Origin: Chloroflexota bacterium
GTDB lineage: Bacteria; Chloroflexota; Limnocylindria; Limnocylindrales; CSP1-4
Assembly (NCBI GenBank): GCA_021812735.1
Contig: JAKAMV010000287.1
Coordinates: 1 to 10,037, forward strand
DNA length: 10,037 nucleotides
Reading direction: 5' to 3'
Shown here: positions 1,511 through 10,013 of the stretch, one piece after another
How the letters are laid out: each line of letters begins with the position of its first letter
Numbering within the stretch: the stretch's first letter is position 1
The notes under the pieces: model-generated
The model's input: only the letters and a program-made list of their open reading frames with translations
Told to the model about the DNA's origin: nothing
Databases searched by the model: none
Program-made: the position numbers and the translations under genes

Positions 1511-1893
1511 TACACCTTCACCCACACCGACGATAGGTTCCGCCTCGCCCTTGTCGTGTCGCCGATCCGGAACCTCGCGTCCTTCTCCAGGCATCCCTCC
1601 CGCCTGCGCTCGAGGCGCCGAGCTGGGCCGGTTGGCCGCGGCGTCATGCAACGCGATCGAGGTCTGGCGGCGCGCCCCGACCCCGCAGGCGCCGGCGTCA
1701 GTATCCACTCGAGCCAATGCCACCGGCCGAAGATGGAATACTTGCCACCATGAGCGAGCGCCTTCCCCAGACCGTCTCGGTCGACCTGTCGCGTCCCCCC
1801 GGCCTCAACCCGGATGACCTGCTGGACCTGCGGCCGCCGCACCCCGAGCCGTCGGCGCTCGGTGGCGAGGCCGTCGCGGGCAGCGGAGCATGA
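1511..1893 (+). pseudogene. Probable decayed RsbW/SpoIIAB-like anti-sigma ATPase
   Basis: No single frame encodes a whole protein, but four pieces in changing frames are in the order of a HATPase_c_2 serine kinase. FRLALVVSPIRNLASFSRH (1538-1594) resembles the N-terminal strand and helix. GAELGRLAAASCNAIEVW (1614-1667) resembles the N-box helix, usually E-x3-NAI-H, here with Ser in place of the catalytic Glu. DPAGAGVSIHSS (1679-1714) resembles the next strand. From 1774 comes VSVDLSRPPGLNPDDL and then SALGG, resembling the D-x-G-x-G loop and the later Gly-rich box. Spacing between F, NAI and VSIH (about 37 and 16 codons) is close to SpoIIAB; the next gap is about ten codons longer. Such proteins hold sigma factors inactive in partner-switching stress pathways. 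The resemblance is by eye and each piece is weak alone. The last piece is also listed as a possible small gene. Confidence 0.4.
1750..1893 (+). CDS. Possible 47-residue protein coupled to the MBL hydrolase
   Basis: An open frame from the ATG at 1750 encodes 47 residues, and its TGA overlaps the ATG of the next gene as ATGA, the classic translational-coupling arrangement. Codon use is typical of the window: about 41 of 47 sense codons end in G or C. The product is Pro-rich and acidic in the middle (PPGLNPDDLLDLRPPHPEP), with no signal peptide or membrane segment. There is no Shine-Dalgarno, but an AATACT hexamer preceded by TG (1734-1742) ends 7 nt before the ATG, which could give a leaderless transcript, though no -35 is evident. 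The alternative, which I favour slightly, is that it is the C-terminal remnant of the anti-sigma ATPase relic. Under that reading the ATGA overlap would be inherited from the intact ancestor. Function unknown. Confidence 0.4.
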   Translation: MSERLPQTVSVDLSRPPGLNPDDLLDLRPPHPEPSALGGEAVAGSGA

Positions 1894-2696
1894 GGGACGT
1901 CCGGCGCGGTGCGCAACGGGACGGGAGGCCCGGTGCGATCGAGGTCACGGTCATCGGATCGGCGCCCTCCGCGCCACAGCCCGACAGCCCGGGCTCCGGA
2001 CTGCTGATCCGCTCGGGCGGGGACTCGCTGCTGCTGGACTGCGGGCCCGGAGTGACGTCCCGCCTCGCGCGCACCCTGGACCCACGGGACCTCTCGGCCG
2101 TCGTGATTACGCACCTCCATGCGGACCACTTCCTGGACCTCGTGTCGCTTCGCTACAGCCTTCCCTGGGCTGGCGCGGACGGGCCCCGGATCCCGGTGCA
2201 CCTGCCGCCCGGGGGCGCCCCGCGACTCGTCGCGCTGGCCGGCGTGATCAGCGAGGCGCCCGACTTCTTCACCCGGGCGCTCGACATCCGCGAGTACGAC
2301 CCCGAGCGGCCGCTGCGCGTCGGACGCCTCACCGTCTCGTTCATCCCCAGCCGCCACTACATCCCTGGCTGGGGCGTGAGCATCGCCCTCGACGCCGGTC
2401 CGCGCCTCGTCCACTCGAGCGACACGGGTCCCAATCCGCAGCTCGCCGACGCGGCGCGCGGCGCAGACCTGCTCGTCGTCGAGGCTACCCTCGGCGACGC
2501 AAGCGAGGACGTGGAGGTCCGGGGTCATCTCACGGTCGACGAGGCGATCGCCATCGCCCGCGATGCGGCCGTTCCACGCGTGCTCCTCACGCACCTGCCG
2601 ACGGACCGGCGTGCGTCGATCCGCGCCGCCCAGGCCGGCATGCGACCGCGCGTGCAGGTCGCCCGGCCCGGGCTGCGCCTGACGCTCGGCGGCTAG
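1890..2696 (+). CDS. MBL-fold metallo-hydrolase (RNase Z-like)
   Basis: A 268-residue cytoplasmic metallo-beta-lactamase-fold hydrolase of the RNase Z/ElaC-like branch, expected to bind two zinc ions. The core starts IEVTVIGS (17-24). The LLLDCGPG strand-loop (47-54) precedes the metal motif HLHADH (75-80). Further likely ligands are H156 (in SRHYIPGWG), D178 (in SSDTG) and H235 (in LLTHLP); H213 is also conserved-looking. These are the second-sphere positions seen in RNase Z-type enzymes. Length is usual for bacterial members. I see no long flexible exosite arm like that of true tRNase Z, so tRNA 3' processing is not assured; phosphodiesterase or arylsulfatase-like activity is equally possible. 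The first ~15 residues are extra relative to the usual MxLTVLGS start, but no other start codon lies in frame before the core. The start overlaps the preceding small frame by ATGA. Confidence 0.9.
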   Translation: MRDVRRGAQRDGRPGAIEVTVIGSAPSAPQPDSPGSGLLIRSGGDSLLLDCGPGVTSRLARTLDPRDLSAVVITHLHADHFLDLVSLRYSLPWAGADGPRIPVHLPPGGAPRLVALAGVISEAPDFFTRALDIREYDPERPLRVGRLTVSFIPSRHYIPGWGVSIALDAGPRLVHSSDTGPNPQLADAARGADLLVVEATLGDASEDVEVRGHLTVDEAIAIARDAAVPRVLLTHLPTDRRASIRAAQAGMRPRVQVARPGLRLTLGG

Positions 2697-2862: not shown

Positions 2863-4581
2863 TCACGAGCGCCCGCCTGCAGCCACCTCGAGGTAGCCGC
2901 ACGGGCAGACGCTGACGCACTTCCCGCATGACTCGCAGTGGTCGAGCGACATGACGAAGTAGCGGCCCGGCTCTGGCTGCTGGAGTCTCACGAAGCTGCC
3001 GACCGTGCAGTACATGGCGCACTGCTGGCAGCCGAAGCACGACCCGCACGAGAGGCAGCGTGCCGCCTCGGCCAGGAACTCCGCCTCGTCCAGCCCGGCG
3101 GCGACCTCGGCGGTCGGCGCCGCAAGACGCTCGGTCGGCGCCAGCCGTACGCGCTGGCGACTCGGCTGGGACGGGTAGAAGTCCCTGAGGAGCACCTCGG
3201 GTCCGACCGAGGGCGCTGCCGCGCGGTTCGGAGGGAGACCGCGAAGCCGCGCATGGACCGCCTCTGCGGCCAGGCGCCCCTGGACGATTGCCTCGCCTGC
3301 GATCCCCTGGACGAGGGCGTCGCCGCCGGCCAGCACATCCGCCTCGACCACGCCCCCGTCGGCCCGGAGCCGCCCGTCCGCGAGGAGCGTCTCAAAGCCC
3401 GCGAAGTCCTGCTCCTGCGAGACCGCGGCGATCACCGCATCGACCGGGATCGCGAACTCCGAGCCAGGCACGGGCACCGGCCGCCGTCGGCCCGACGCGT
3501 CGGGTGCCCCCAGCTCAATCCGCGTCGCGATCAACTCGCGCAGTGCGCCGTCCTGCCGCCCGATCCTGACGGGCGCCGCTTGGAGCACGAGCGTCACCCC
3601 CTCCTCGAGCGCGTCGTCGACCTCCACCGCGATCGCCGGCATCTCCGCTCGCGACCGGCGATAGAGCATCGTCACCTCGGCGCCGCCACGGCGGGCGGTC
3701 CGTGCCGCGTCGACAGCCGTGTTGCCTGCGCCGACCACCGCGACGCGCGGGCCCAGATCGACCGCGTCGCCGAGGTTGACGCGCTCGAGGTATCCCGCGC
3801 CGGTCCAGACTCCTGGACCGTCCTCGCCCGGGATGCCGAGCGTCCTCCCCTGCTGAGCGCCGATCGCGACGTAGAGCACGTCATGCCGGCGGCGCAGGTC
3901 CTCGAACGTGACGTTCACACCGACGCGGACGCCGAGAGCGAGCTCGGCGCCCAGGTCGACGATCCGCCCGATCTCCGCATCGAGGACCGCGGGCGGCAGG
4001 CGGAAGTCGGGGATGCCGTAGCGGAGCATCCCGCCCGCCCTCGGCCGCCCCTCGTACACCGTGACCCGGTAGCCGCGCCTCGCGAGCTGGTAGGCGAACG
4101 ACAGGCCCGACGGCCCCGCGCCGATGACGCCCACGGTCTCGGTCGGCGCCCCGGCCCGCGTCTGGTCGTCAAGGCGCACGAGGGGCAGCCCGGCCCGGAT
4201 CGCGTAGTCGCCGAGGAACTGCTCCATGGCGTTGATCGCGACCGGCTCGTCGTGGGTGCCGCGGTTGCAGAGCGTCTGACAGGGGTGCGGGCACACCCGG
4301 CCGAGCACGGCCGGGAAGGGATTGACGTCGGTGATCGTCTGCCACGCGCGCACGTAGGCCTCCTCGCGCGTCAGGCCCAGCTTGTCGCGCTGCGCGATGA
4401 AGCCGATCCAGCGCCGGATGTCGCCGGAGTTCGGGCACTCCAGCTGGCAGGGCGGCGTCTTCTCGACCTGCGCGGGCCGGTAGACCGGCAGCTCGACCCG
4501 CGGGGGCTCCGTCGCGCGGAGCGGCGGCGCGTCGGGACCCGCGATCGGCGACGGCGCGTCGCCCCGTGCGGGCACGGTCAC
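2863..4581 (-). CDS. GltD-like NAD(P)H/FAD oxidoreductase with C-terminal ferredoxin module
   Basis: A 572-residue soluble oxidoreductase related to the small subunit of glutamate synthase. Such proteins pass electrons between NAD(P)H, FAD and iron-sulfur clusters. The N-terminal Fe-S domain has C45-x3-C49 and C97-x3-C101-x3-C105. The FAD Rossmann motif is GAGPSG (154-159) with an acidic strand end at E177. The NAD(P)H motif is GAGNTA (284-289), followed by YRRS, whose Args suggest NADPH. After residue 505 comes a Cys-rich segment (C509, C512, C515, C518, C521, C525) and then a 4Fe-4S motif, C549-x2-C552-x2-C555-x3-C559-P. GltD lacks this tail, so about 110 residues are added. No glutamate-synthase large subunit is present, so the partner is probably the flavoprotein in the same operon. 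The start is GTG at 4581-4579, overlapping the stop of the cyclic-nucleotide gene as GTGA. Confidence 0.93.
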   Translation of the reverse strand: MTVPARGDAPSPIAGPDAPPLRATEPPRVELPVYRPAQVEKTPPCQLECPNSGDIRRWIGFIAQRDKLGLTREEAYVRAWQTITDVNPFPAVLGRVCPHPCQTLCNRGTHDEPVAINAMEQFLGDYAIRAGLPLVRLDDQTRAGAPTETVGVIGAGPSGLSFAYQLARRGYRVTVYEGRPRAGGMLRYGIPDFRLPPAVLDAEIGRIVDLGAELALGVRVGVNVTFEDLRRRHDVLYVAIGAQQGRTLGIPGEDGPGVWTGAGYLERVNLGDAVDLGPRVAVVGAGNTAVDAARTARRGGAEVTMLYRRSRAEMPAIAVEVDDALEEGVTLVLQAAPVRIGRQDGALRELIATRIELGAPDASGRRRPVPVPGSEFAIPVDAVIAAVSQEQDFAGFETLLADGRLRADGGVVEADVLAGGDALVQGIAGEAIVQGRLAAEAVHARLRGLPPNRAAAPSVGPEVLLRDFYPSQPSRQRVRLAPTERLAAPTAEVAAGLDEAEFLAEAARCLSCGSCFGCQQCAMYCTVGSFVRLQQPEPGRYFVMSLDHCESCGKCVSVCPCGYLEVAAGGRS

Positions 4582-4952
4582 TTCCCGGACTCGCCGCCTG
4601 AGGCCGCCGCGGCGTCCAGGCTCCTGATCCGGCGCGACATCGTCTCGAGGATGTGGAAGGCGAGGGTCGGGTCCTCCTTCATCCGCCGGAGCAGCGTTCG
4701 CTTGTCCACCTTCAACACTCGCGCCTCGCCGACGGCGCGGACGGTGGCCGAGCGGGGCTCACGCTCGAAGATCGACATCTCGCCGAAGAAGTCGCCCTCG
4801 ACGAGGACTCGGAGGCGCTGCTCCCCATCCGGGCTCGCCTTGACCACCTCGACCTTGCCGGACTGGACGACGTACATGCAGTCGCCGGGCTCGCCCTCGC
4901 GCACGATCGGCTGCCCGGGCGTGTACAGGCTGCCGAGCTCGTTCGATCTCAC
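4578..4952 (-). CDS. Stand-alone cyclic-nucleotide-binding domain protein
   Basis: A 124-residue protein made almost entirely of one CRP/PKA-type cyclic-nucleotide-binding beta-barrel. It has no helix-turn-helix, kinase, channel or cyclase attached. The first half carries the barrel Gly signature (PGQPIVREGEPGDCMYVV, 12-29, then SGKVEV). The phosphate-binding cassette is FGEMSIFEREPRSATVRA (56-73), with E58 for the ribose and R67 for the cyclic phosphate both in place. This suggests a real ligand site for cAMP or cGMP. The C-helix region (LLRRMKEDP to MSRRIRSLD) is followed by a short Ala/Gly/Ser tail. It starts with GTG at 4952-4950, one nucleotide after the flavoprotein stop, behind a purine-rich GGGAAAGGGG (4959-4968). 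Its end overlaps the oxidoreductase start. It may be a regulatory subunit for its two redox neighbours; that role is inferred from position only. Confidence 0.9.
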   Translation of the reverse strand: MRSNELGSLYTPGQPIVREGEPGDCMYVVQSGKVEVVKASPDGEQRLRVLVEGDFFGEMSIFEREPRSATVRAVGEARVLKVDKRTLLRRMKEDPTLAFHILETMSRRIRSLDAAAASGGESGK

Positions 4953-4953
4953 C

Positions 4954-6378
4954 TCAAACCCCTTTCCCGCTCCCGTTCGACGGGCGCAGGGCCGTCACCA
5001 TGTTGAGCGCCAGGTTTCCGAGGAAACCCGGGCGCAGCGTGTCGAGGAAGATCTCGCGGTAGGGCGCGCTGCCCGTGAACATGTTCCAGAGCACCGCGCT
5101 CATTCGCGGCATGCGTCCGGCCTCTTCCTGCTCGCGGCGTGTCATAGCCAGGATCGCCCGGCGCGAGAACCTCAGGCGCTTGAGAAGAGTCGTGGTCATG
5201 AAGATCAGGCGCCCGATCGCGTTGTCGTTGGCGATGGTCTGGCACGAGGGCCAGTAGTCGCGGGCGAATGCCTCCTTCGAGACGCCCTGGAGGACGGCGG
5301 TCATCGCCGCCGCCTTGGCGGTCCGGAACGCCGCGCCGATCCCGTCCTTGTACAGGCGCGTGATGCCTGAGTCGCCGATCAGCAGCAGGCGTTCGGCATA
5401 CGGCTGCTTCATGCCGCCCATGTTGATGAGCGGGCTGCAGGCGCAGGCGGCCAGGCTCGCGTCCGCGGGCAGGACGGGTCGGACGACCGGCGACTCGAGG
5501 AAGCGGTGGATGAGCTCTAGGTCGATCTCGTCACCGAGCATGACCATCGTCACGTACTCCCCCTTGGGGATCAGCGCGGCGAACTCGAGTCGGGGGATGT
5601 CGAGCAGGAAGACGTGCATCGAATGGCCCAGGGCCCGTTCGATCTCCTCGCGCGTCGACTTCAGCTCCGTGATGTAGGTCCGCGTCGTCCTCGGGCGGTC
5701 CGGGGGCGACGGGAAGCCGTCGATGGAGGCGAGGAGGTTGCTGTTGACGCCCGTCGCGACGGTGACCAGGTCGTACCGCGTCTCGGTTCCGTCAGCCTCC
5801 CGGACGTGGGGGCGGCCGTCGTGCCAGGCGACGCCGGTCACGAGCTTGCGAACGACGCGCGCCCCCTTCTCGACGGCGAGCTTCTGCAGGTACCCGTCGA
5901 AGCTGATCCCGGCGAGCCCGTCGCCCCCGCGCGGCCCGTCGGCGCGGTAGAGGGCGGCGATCCGCGACTCGCGGGCCGGGCTCGCGATCGGGACGCTCCC
6001 GACGTCCATGTGGACGACGTACGACTCGATCCCGGACTGGATGACCTCGGGCGGGAGCTTGATGCCCTCGGCGGCGAGGATCTGGACGAGCGATTCCGAG
6101 ACGATCCCGCCGCAGTGGTTGCACCCGCCCGGACCCGAGCGCGTGAAGGCGCGCGGCTCGTAGAGGTCGACATCGAGGCGGAGATCGACCATCGCGGCGA
6201 TCTTGAGGAGGAAGTAGGCGAAGAACGAGCCCGCGGGTCCACCACCGACGACCGCGACCCGGTCGCCGTCCTCGAGCATCAAGTCGCTCGACGCGCTGAC
6301 CGCCGTGGTGAGCGATGCGGCAGCGTCACGGCTGCGCGCCTCGCGGGTCGAGAGCAGCCTCATCTCGTGCGAACGCAC
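4954..6378 (-). CDS. Geranylgeranyl-reductase-like FAD-dependent oxidoreductase
   Basis: A 474-residue flavoprotein of the GGR/p-hydroxybenzoate-hydroxylase fold. Relatives reduce isoprenoid double bonds or oxidise aromatic substrates. The FAD motif GGGPAG is at 45-50. A conserved-looking GGCNHCGG (84-91) puts C86 and C89 at the place where geranylgeranyl reductases carry their active-site Cys-Gly-(Gly/Asp). The second FAD motif is LLLIGDSGITRLYKDGIG (331-348). The C-terminal ~100 residues include a basic, hydrophobic segment (RLIFMTTTLLKRLRFSRRAI, 390-409) that may touch the membrane; no clear transmembrane helix is seen. The start is uncertain. GTG at 6378 is the longest choice, ATG at 6363 is possible, and ATG at 6279 (MLEDGDRVAVVGGG) would match where the fold begins. 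None has a clear RBS. It is the first gene of a three-gene operon and probably receives electrons from the GltD-like protein. Substrate unknown. Confidence 0.88.
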   Translation of the reverse strand: MRSHEMRLLSTREARSRDAAASLTTAVSASSDLMLEDGDRVAVVGGGPAGSFFAYFLLKIAAMVDLRLDVDLYEPRAFTRSGPGGCNHCGGIVSESLVQILAAEGIKLPPEVIQSGIESYVVHMDVGSVPIASPARESRIAALYRADGPRGGDGLAGISFDGYLQKLAVEKGARVVRKLVTGVAWHDGRPHVREADGTETRYDLVTVATGVNSNLLASIDGFPSPPDRPRTTRTYITELKSTREEIERALGHSMHVFLLDIPRLEFAALIPKGEYVTMVMLGDEIDLELIHRFLESPVVRPVLPADASLAACACSPLINMGGMKQPYAERLLLIGDSGITRLYKDGIGAAFRTAKAAAMTAVLQGVSKEAFARDYWPSCQTIANDNAIGRLIFMTTTLLKRLRFSRRAILAMTRREQEEAGRMPRMSAVLWNMFTGSAPYREIFLDTLRPGFLGNLALNMVTALRPSNGSGKGV

Positions 6379-6789: not shown

Positions 6790-8274
6790 TCAGGAGCCGT
6801 TGAGGCGACGCGCCGCGGATGACTTCCGCATGGCCGCGCGCTCTGCTAGCACGTCGGCCATGCGACGAAAGATTGGCAGGTGGACGGGCAAGAGGAGGTA
6901 CCAGTACAGGTACCCGGCGAGACCGTCAGGGTCGAAGTAGGCGGTCTGGACGAGACGCGAGCCGGTGGCGAGGGGATCGACCGAGAATTGGAGCCAGGCG
7001 CGACCGGGCACCCGCATCTCGGCTCGGAGGCGGAGGAGCCGGGGCCGTTCCAGCGCCTCGACGCGCCAGAAGTCCACCGCGTCGCCGACCCGGAGTCGCT
7101 CGGTGTCCCGTCGACCGAGCCGCATCCCAACCCCGCCCACGAGGCGGTCCATGAACCCCCTGATGCGCCACAGAAGGTGGCCCGAAGGCCAACCGACGGG
7201 GCCCCCCAGCCGCTCCACTTCGGCGAAGATCTCGTCGGGCGCCGCGTTGACCTCCCGAACGCGACGATCCGTCAGGATCCGCCGGGTGGTCGGAGCGGCA
7301 CCGACGAATACCGCTGGTTCGCGTCGGCGGGTCTCGTAGGTATCGAACCACGTCGTTTCGACGCGGTTGCCGACCGTCCGTTCCGCCGCCTCATGGATGG
7401 CCTCTTCGTATCGCAGCAGATCTATCTCGAACGCGGAGGCGACGCCCGGCTCCCGGACCACGCACCCGTGCTCGAGGCGCTCGATGATCGCCCGGGCAAC
7501 TCCGCGCGGCAGCGGGGACATGAGACTGACCCACGCGTCGCTCGCGAACGCTGTCGCGACCGGGAGCGGAATCTGGACGCGGTGGAGGCTCCGGGCGCGG
7601 GCGTACCGGAGGAGCATCTCAGCGAACGACAGGACCTCCGGCCCGCCGATCTCGGCCACGCCCGTCGTCTTCCGCTCGAGCGCGGCCGTCAGGTAGCCGA
7701 GGACGTTGCCGATGGAGATCGGCTGAGCGGGAAGTTCCACCCAGCGCGGCGTCGTCATGATCCGAACATGCTCGGTCAGGTGGCGGATCATTTCGAAAGG
7801 CGCGCTACCCGAGCCGATCACGAGCGAGGACCGAAACTCCATTACCGGGACTCCACCCTGGGCAAGGGCCGCGCCACGATCGCCGAAGGCCGCGGTTCCA
7901 CTCTCGGATGCCGACCCGCGCGGCGCGTCTCCGAGCTCTCCCAGATGGACGATCTGTCGGGCACCAGCGACCCGGGCGGCCGCGCCCAGGGTCTCGGCGG
8001 CCCGCGCCTCCTCCGCCCATGCGGCCGACTGGTACCGGACGATCGTCTCGGGCAGGAGGTAGACGACCTCCGGCGGCTCGGCGAAGTCCCTGAGTGCGGC
8101 ATCGAGCGAGCGATGGTCGCTTGGGTCAGCAGTCAGGACGGTCGAGCCCGGAAAGCGGTGGGCGACCAGGGCAGGCTGGCGGGAGATCAGGGTCAACTCG
8201 TGGCCACCGTGGAGAAGCCTAGTCACGAGTCGCCCCCCGACGTAGCCGCCCGCGCCGACCACCAGGATTTGCAT
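6790..8274 (-). CDS. Atypical SDR/NmrA-like epimerase fused to DUF2867
   Basis: A 494-residue cytoplasmic two-domain protein. Residues 1 to ~310 form a Rossmann-fold atypical short-chain dehydrogenase (NAD-dependent epimerase/NmrA-like). Its nucleotide motif is VVGAGGYVGGRLV (5-17), and LVIGSGSAPFEMIRHLTEHV (151-170) with TPRWVELPAQPI (175-186) matches the conserved middle of this family. No YxxxK catalytic pair is evident, so it may bind rather than turn over the cofactor. Residues ~320-494 are the DUF2867 domain, with VGDAVDFWRVEALER (397-411) and the ending GYLYWYLLLPVHLPIFRRM (454-472). This fusion is a recurrent uncharacterised family of about 480-500 residues. I chose the ATG at 8274-8272 because the nucleotide-binding strand begins at once there. 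The frame stays open to 8469 but encodes only Gly/Pro/Arg-rich sequence. It stands alone, more than 400 nt from its neighbour. Confidence 0.9.
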   Translation of the reverse strand: MQILVVGAGGYVGGRLVTRLLHGGHELTLISRQPALVAHRFPGSTVLTADPSDHRSLDAALRDFAEPPEVVYLLPETIVRYQSAAWAEEARAAETLGAAARVAGARQIVHLGELGDAPRGSASESGTAAFGDRGAALAQGGVPVMEFRSSLVIGSGSAPFEMIRHLTEHVRIMTTPRWVELPAQPISIGNVLGYLTAALERKTTGVAEIGGPEVLSFAEMLLRYARARSLHRVQIPLPVATAFASDAWVSLMSPLPRGVARAIIERLEHGCVVREPGVASAFEIDLLRYEEAIHEAAERTVGNRVETTWFDTYETRRREPAVFVGAAPTTRRILTDRRVREVNAAPDEIFAEVERLGGPVGWPSGHLLWRIRGFMDRLVGGVGMRLGRRDTERLRVGDAVDFWRVEALERPRLLRLRAEMRVPGRAWLQFSVDPLATGSRLVQTAYFDPDGLAGYLYWYLLLPVHLPIFRRMADVLAERAAMRKSSAARRLNGS

Positions 8275-8877: not shown

Positions 8878-9084
8878 GGCGCCGACAAGCCGCCTCGCGA
8901 CGGTCAGCGCGGCCTTTGGCGATCACGGCCAACCCCATGCCTGCCCGGTGATGCGCCATTACCCCAGCCGGTCGATCGGCCCGGCGAAGTACGTCACAAG
9001 TCTCTTGCCTTGGGTGCCCAATCGCCTGAATCTGGACTTATCTTGTGAGGGCCGTCCCCGCCACGATGGAGCGAGCGGGCAGCC

Positions 9085-9091
9085 AAGGAGG
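9085..9091 (+). promoter_or_regulatory. Strong Shine-Dalgarno of the secreted-protein gene
   Basis: AAGGAGG, seven bases of the anti-16S consensus, ends 4 nt before the ATG at 9096. It is the best ribosome binding site in the window. It decides the start at 9096 over the in-frame GTG at 9045, which has no such signal. Confidence 0.85.
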
Positions 9092-9095
9092 GGCG

Positions 9096-10013
9096 ATGTC
9101 ATCGGTCTTGCGTAAGCTTGTGCTCATCGGCGCGGGCGCGGCGCTCCTGTCCGGACTGACGGCAGGGCCGCTGACAGCCGCCTCGTCGACCAAGAAGACC
9201 TACGGCGTCACGGTCACCCCCGCGACCCTGGACTACGGCGCCCCGAGCATCACCTCGGCGTTCAGCGTCACCTACATGAACACGACCCCCGGTGGTATCG
9301 CCTCGTTCAACTCGCTGAGCCTGAGCGCGCCGGCCGGATACTCGATCGACGCCACGTCCGTCTCCTTCACCACGACCACGGGGAGCTCGGCCGGGAACCT
9401 GACGTCGAGCCCCACGACCGTCACGGTGACGAACCTGTACCCGGTGACGTACGGCCAGTCGGTCACCCTTTCGTTCTCGGCGACCGTCGACACCACGAGC
9501 CTCACCTGCTCCACTGCCGTGGGCACCTGGGCGACTCAGGTCTGGACCGGCGCGAACACGAGCGGCACCCTGTTCGCGCTCTCCTCGGCGGTCCCCACCA
9601 CGACGATCGGCACGGACCTCCAGCCCGGAGCCTCGATCACGGCCAGCGGGGTGACCGTGACGAACGTCGGCACGACATGCGTGCCGGTCACGGTCAGCCG
9701 GAACGGCAACACCGTCACGATCCTCAAGCCGACCATCGAGGGGGTCGCGCTCAGCGTCGACATCCTCTGGGACCCTGAGCCCGCGGTCCTGCCGCTGCCG
9801 GTGGACCAGGTGGAGGCTTCCGGCAGCGCGACCCCCGGTCCCGTCCAGTGGTGCGGCGGCACGCCGAGCCAGCCCACGGTCCCGGCGGGCCAGGTGTCCT
9901 GCCTCGTCTCGGAGTCGTCGCAGATCTACGGCCCCGACGCCAGCGGGAACCAGCAGGTCCGGGTTCACGACGTGGTCTACCTGCTGGGCGACTACAGCAT
10001 CGTGCGCGGCTAG
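9096..10013 (+). CDS. Secreted Thr/Ser-rich beta-rich protein, function unknown
   Basis: A 305-residue exported protein that I cannot assign to a named family. Residues 1-29 are a clear Sec signal peptide: R6-K7, the hydrophobic core LVLIGAGAALLSGLTAG, then PLTAAS with probable cleavage after A29. There is no lipobox Cys, LPxTG motif or C-terminal anchor, so it is probably released or loosely surface-bound. The mature part is very rich in Thr, Ser, Val and Gly, with short alternating strands such as KKTYGVTVTPATLDYGAP, TTVTVTNLYPVTYGQS and SGVTVTNVGTTCVP, pointing to two or more Ig-like beta-sandwiches. Four Cys (in LTCST, TTCVP, WCGG and VSCLV) could form two disulfides. The repeated VTVTN may reflect an old domain duplication. 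A strong RBS suggests good expression. It is divergent from the SDR gene and ends just before a hairpin at the window edge. Adhesin, cell-surface or sheath component are possibilities only. Confidence 0.85.
   Translation: MSSVLRKLVLIGAGAALLSGLTAGPLTAASSTKKTYGVTVTPATLDYGAPSITSAFSVTYMNTTPGGIASFNSLSLSAPAGYSIDATSVSFTTTTGSSAGNLTSSPTTVTVTNLYPVTYGQSVTLSFSATVDTTSLTCSTAVGTWATQVWTGANTSGTLFALSSAVPTTTIGTDLQPGASITASGVTVTNVGTTCVPVTVSRNGNTVTILKPTIEGVALSVDILWDPEPAVLPLPVDQVEASGSATPGPVQWCGGTPSQPTVPAGQVSCLVSESSQIYGPDASGNQQVRVHDVVYLLGDYSIVRG

Follow-up and report, generated by a model that had tools for sequence, protein, structure and literature searches.

A conserved pairing of a flavoprotein with a cyclic-nucleotide-binding domain

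What does a cyclic-nucleotide-binding domain (CNBD) do when it is encoded on its own between two redox proteins? The question is raised by a stretch of 10,037 nt from a Chloroflexota bacterium (contig JAKAMV010000287.1; "the window" denotes this whole stretch), in which three consecutive minus-strand open reading frames (ORFs) at 6378..4954 (474 aa), 4952..4578 (124 aa), and 4581..2863 (572 aa) code for a flavoprotein (G), a stand-alone CNBD (C), and a GltD-like protein (D), respectively. In our reading, to which we give a probability of roughly 0.6, C regulates a redox enzyme as one of its subunits and responds to cyclic AMP or cyclic GMP (cAMP, cGMP). The genes are tightly packed, as the initial annotation of this DNA had described: a single base separates the TGA stop codon of G from the GTG start codon of C at 4952, and the bases GTGA at 4581-4578 are common to the stop of C and the start of D. 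For G, homologue starts make ATG 6363 (469 aa) the likely start rather than GTG 6378.

Of 8000 candidates scored for G, protein searches counted 5084 as relatives; for C the number was 1919, and 120 rows were listed in each case. Genome loci were fetched with G alone (alignment of 31 proteins); 80 of 169 confirmed genome loci were kept, further genome samples were added, and gene calls came from an ORF picker of our own making. Removal of duplicates (L119, L120, and L133) left 109 loci, 93 of them close to the G of the window (window included) and 16 distant. Loci L018 and L138 stem from the same genome, and L126 and L128 were moved by hand to the distant set because their two G-like halves inflate their score.

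A same-strand C adjoins or is fused with G in 90 of the 93 close loci (80 adjacent, with C after G in 66 and before it in 14, and 10 fused), a linkage far beyond chance. In two of the three exceptions the contig ends soon, after 423 nt (L017) and 724 nt (L139); the third, L149, lacks the usual C and has a gene for a CNBD-HD_5 protein (L149:1281-2285(+)) convergent with G. In the stretches fetched for the 16 distant loci a C occurs once, at a distance of about 1.1 kb (L126). A gene was counted as D if it lay on the same strand, no farther than 3.5 kb away, and scored more than 300 bits. By this rule 50 of the 93 close loci have D beside G, 31 lack it despite having room, and 12 are undetermined. 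One locus with all three genes, L069, belongs to the strain Seongchinamella unica GH4-78. The three genes that the initial annotation had regarded as the unit are all present in the window, but comparison of the frequencies of C and D identifies G-C as the core, with D as an optional addition.

Order and tight spacing also recur among the close loci; rare adjacency elsewhere, which would have counted against the initial annotation, is not what the genomes show. No more than 60 nt lie between the stop codon of G and the codon that opens the C domain in 64 of 66 loci, the median being 2, and C overlaps the earliest D start by 4 nt in 17 of 36. A quick tree of G (109 rows, long branches flagged, no bootstrap) requires one state change for D, eight for gene order, and at least seven for fusion, so that by this tree D would have been gained once. 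In L025, C is fused to D. The distances of G correlate with those of C (r 0.62 over 87 loci; maximum of 2000 permutations 0.12) and of D (r 0.83 over 48 loci, no permutation test), and the parts of the module appear to travel together across phyla.

Genomes matching G at E ≤ 1e-80 numbered 15 of 247 in the phylum of an Acidobacteriota metagenome-assembled genome (MAG), 7 of 200 in that of a Gemmatimonadota genome, 12 of 251 in that of a Chloroflexota genome, and, at class level, 2 of 369 for a Xanthomonadales MAG (samples centred on G001, G011, G008, and G012), of which 10, 6, 3, and 2, respectively, were of the close type by E-value; the other matches are distant relatives, and each sample includes its centre genome, a positive known from the outset. 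These low rates indicate a module that is sporadic yet spread over many phyla. Viral contigs gave 39 pattern matches, none of which was a relative.

The redox proteins G and D

G matched an FAD-oxidoreductase domain in a domain scan of seven window proteins. Its description as similar to geranylgeranyl reductase (GGR) holds for the fold, as judged on a G-C relative, but not for the curated family, since G scores 44.4 bits against TIGR02032 (cut-off 158.8). GGRs have an aromatic YxWxFP substrate motif; in the alignment of 31 G proteins, the corresponding position of G may be RLEFAALIPKG. Profile searches of the PDB gave FixC as first match for the broader A6 profile and no match for the A1 profile. 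G has four near-invariant cysteines (C86, C89, C312, and C314), three of which are missing in the G paralogue; they may hold a [4Fe-4S] cluster or form redox disulfides. A separate observation concerns distant relatives of G in ten loci (L126, L127, L128, L129, L136, L141, L142, L143, L146, and L148), where another GGR-like flavoprotein (G') forms a pair or a fusion with G; apart from L126, no CNBD was seen near them.

D contains Fer4_20 and Pyr_redox_2 domains and a C-terminal 4Fe-4S dicluster match (Fer4_7) slightly below its cut-off, and narrowly misses the cut-off of NF009410 (PRK12771; 497 bits over residues 35-568, cut-off 516). Its homologues keep five N-terminal cysteines in 49 of 49 sequences, ten C-terminal ones in 46-47 of 49 (gaps in the rest), and an eleventh (C561) in 40 of 49. 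The conserved Fe-S cysteines and glycine-rich motifs, together with the domain matches, agree with the earlier description of D as a GltD-like FAD/NAD(P)H protein carrying extra Fe-S clusters. The chain from NAD(P)H to the flavoprotein that had been suggested likewise gains support, from D tracking G and from domains resembling type II NADH dehydrogenase (NDH-2) that are fused in one chain to three distant G proteins (L131, L140, and L144).

The putative nucleotide site of C and nearby cyclases

C consists of a single cNMP_binding domain (PF00027; residues 10-93, 94.4 bits, cut-off 27.5), and the domain scan found no output domain. The cassette of C, FGEMSIFEREPRSATVRA, aligns to the sites of PKG, and the Gly, Glu, and Arg residues are present in the window as the initial annotation had read them. 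All 90 C domains compared have the Gly, 89 have the Glu, and 88 the Arg, which is followed by Ser in 74 and by Thr in 14. C scores 39 bits against the Pat acetyltransferase model NF058543 (cut-off 460). Going by the names of the 120 C homologues listed, some sources label as transcription regulators many short 'CRP-like' proteins that lack a DNA-binding domain.

Class III cyclases (PF00211) are present in 16 of 17 and 57 of 61 host genomes tested, with 421 matches in 281.4 Mb. Near close G genes, 21 cyclase-domain genes occur in 20 loci against 2.03 expected; without six FHA/cyclase-like genes of group c13 and L072, 14 remain (Poisson P 3.5e-8). Class III cyclase genes are thus seven to ten times commoner near G-C than expected, an excess that, like that of DUF2867 below, may be somewhat overstated, since densities were determined with Pfam on 78 genomes and loci were counted with our own models. 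In L056 an FHA-GAF-cyclase gene begins at the base right after the end of C, and in L046 a related gene follows C by 24 nt; each of these two genomes has one PF00211 match, at this very gene. Inspected by eye, both domains carry what we take to be adenylyl-type residues and look active. The c13 genes (FHA plus cyclase-like domain) lie directly after C in L020, L062, L064, and L077 and before G in L134 and L135; by eye, and by residue rules that we presume to apply, they keep the metal Asp residues and apparently have no catalytic Asn. Seven weak cyclase matches below 40 bits (L028, L031, L048, L054, L061, L063, and L074) were left out of the 21. Six of these loci have a Woeseia-type protein near D (L028:7674-8399(-), L031, L048, L054, L061, and L063) that by eye resembles a divergent class III cyclase; the L028 copy had no Pfam match.

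Proposed mechanism and alternative explanations

In the mechanism that we propose, G would be the catalytic flavoprotein, with a GGR/FixC fold and FAD, and C would bind cAMP (or cGMP) made by a class III cyclase of the host. By touching G, and D where present, C would turn electron flow up or down. In this clade electrons taken from NAD(P)H would travel via the FAD and Fe-S clusters of D to G, which would reduce a quinone, a lipid, or another substrate that is probably hydrophobic or located in the membrane, and a neighbouring SDR-DUF2867 protein may act on or carry the same or a linked substrate. The contact between C and the enzymes that had been suggested from the gene order gains indirect support from the ten G-C fusions and the C-D fusion.

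Several observations weigh against this reading. The cassette Arg is lost in two G-C fusions (L059 and L138) and the Glu in L032, so ligand binding may not be universal; no clear cyclase gene is found in the fetched DNA of 73 of the 93 close loci; 31 of the 81 judgeable loci lack D; and the predicted template modelling score (pTM) of the fused model, 0.85, says little on an interface. C might instead serve in structure or assembly, through dimerisation or by docking to the membrane or a partner, with a constitutively bound nucleotide and no signalling role. Fusion and tight linkage need only physical association, three loci keep the domain despite lost cassette residues, and most loci have no clear cyclase nearby. 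The near-complete conservation of the cassette and the seven- to tenfold cyclase excess, however, point to a changing ligand, and we consider a structural C unlikely.

The ligand could also differ from cAMP and cGMP: C might sense another cyclic nucleotide such as cCMP or cUMP, or a redox nucleotide. The apparent absence of the catalytic Asn from the neighbouring c13 proteins would fit this, as would the PADLOC matches of C to the CNBDs of PycTIR/PycC and of the L056 cyclase to PycC, which arise through shared domains. The presumed adenylyl-type residues of the L056 and L046 cyclases and the RSAT cassette of C, which resembles ordinary cAMP/cGMP sites, make such a ligand improbable. That C works elsewhere in the cell and merely shares an operon with unrelated genes is very hard to uphold: operons often hold loosely related genes and D is optional, but fusion has occurred repeatedly and the linkage in 90 of 93 loci covers several phyla. 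Equally remote is a defence effector similar to Pycsar, in which a cyclase triggered by infection would activate C and G-D would drain NAD(P)H, for although the combination of cyclase, CNBD, and NAD(P)H enzyme recalls Pycsar logic and PADLOC finds domain matches for C and the cyclases, it leaves G unmatched and gives D a single weak match of 36 residues to an FAD motif, the seven scanned window proteins include no cyclase, and G-C is not tied to one cyclase.

Neighbouring genes

Directly upstream of G, and overlooked by the initial annotation, lies a gene for an SDR-DUF2867 protein (Table 1). In 18 other close loci DUF2867 occurs near G, where 0.24 would be expected, and L139 carries the two as a fusion. 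The stretch separating the SDR gene from G yielded no sigma-70 promoter or terminator, a result that says little in either direction. The SDR part has a predicted fold near complex I NDUFA9-type chains. A lipid-binding SRPBCC fold is not claimed for DUF2867, since the fold-search matches shown cover the SDR half; comparison with Polyketide_cyc2 neighbours (a ten-locus cluster assigned by Pfam scan of one member) gave an hhalign probability of 23% (E 9e-4), and the predicted topology is compatible with SRPBCC.

Table 1. Positions of genes and ORFs in the window.
Feature	Position	Strand	Description
G	6363..4954	-	FAD flavoprotein, GGR/FixC fold, four near-invariant cysteines (CxxC + CxC); longest ORF from GTG 6378
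C	4952..4578	-	Stand-alone CNBD, phosphate-binding cassette intact; regulatory subunit proposed
D	4581..2863	-	GltD-like NAD(P)H/FAD protein, N-terminal Fe-S cysteines and C-terminal dicluster; electron donor proposed
SDR-DUF2867	8274..6790	-	SDR (NmrA/epimerase) and DUF2867, recurrent partner; likely ATG 8274 (494 aa), longest ORF from GTG 8469
MBL-fold hydrolase	1890..2696	+	Convergent to D
MFS-transporter ORF	left end of window	-	

The best NCBIfam match of the MBL-fold protein in the window is the cyclic-nucleotide phosphodiesterase model NF041851, at 134.9 against a cut-off of 400. It was rejected as a conserved phosphodiesterase partner, its kind having matched only itself in the loci searched. 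A different MBL kind occurs near G in L020, L046, L056, L071, and L072; three of these five proteins fall below the phosphodiesterase cut-off, and RNase Z models match them about as well or better. For these reasons the MBL protein stays a lead. An acetate-type uptake cluster upstream of the module in several Lysobacterales was also rejected as a module part, as it looks like the context of one lineage; genes for a DUF4212/symporter, a DUF294-CBS-CNBD protein, an exonuclease, and an acyl-CoA synthetase lie upstream of G there (L004 2653-9309). The window further contains a Thr/Ser-rich ORF (9045-10013, plus strand) that has no Pfam match and, by eye, what looks like a signal segment.

Comparison with known systems

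Enzymes controlled by CNBDs are a known kind, and the G-C pairing appears undescribed. Literature searches on CNBDs combined with GGRs, oxidoreductases, or thioredoxin reductase, on DUF2867, and on cAMP-linked flavoproteins or gene clusters, whose coverage excluded most subscription journals, turned up no description of the module among the entries listed. We tentatively suggest that the module represents a widespread, horizontally spread class of redox systems gated by a second messenger, with a cyclase as writer, a CNBD as reader, and a four-cysteine flavoprotein (possibly Fe-S, FixC/GGR-fold) as output. Its parts would be encoded together in some lineages, and cAMP might itself set the flow of electrons to a membrane substrate, with neither transcription nor kinases in between, a notion that we hold no more firmly. 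The G-C module suggests a testable role for an uncharacterised flavoprotein family, DUF2867, and many of the short 'CRP-like' proteins.

Compared with geranylgeranyl reductases (TIGR02032; PDB 3oz2, 3atq), G differs by its score, its two cysteine pairs, and its CNBD partner or fusion. FixC/electron transfer flavoprotein (ETF)-quinone oxidoreductase systems (PDB 7koe_C) have adjacent genes for ETF (FixA/FixB) and FixX, whereas neither was seen among the seven scanned window proteins, and FixC has none of the four G cysteines in the aligned stretches. D resembles PRK12771/GltD-like NAD(P)-binding proteins over the residues aligned to NF009410 and differs from them by its sub-cut-off score and its partnership with G-C. 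Pycsar combines a class III cyclase with a CNBD effector; no TIR or transmembrane effector was seen in the window, no cyclase is obligate, and G lacks a defence match. The cAMP-gated acetyltransferase Pat and CNBD-thioredoxin reductase fusions are alike in that an enzyme, not a channel or DNA-binding domain, accompanies the CNBD, but C is mostly a separate subunit and its enzyme a FixC/GGR-fold flavoprotein. In the PKA regulatory subunit, a separate nucleotide-binding subunit controls an enzyme by contact; C differs in being a single CNBD with a redox partner and no kinase. Bacterial cAMP is known mainly for its transcriptional role through CRP, in addition to a few channels and acetyltransferases. 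A cyclic-nucleotide sensor as subunit of an NAD(P)H-linked redox enzyme would, if true, add the direct control of electron flow to these roles.

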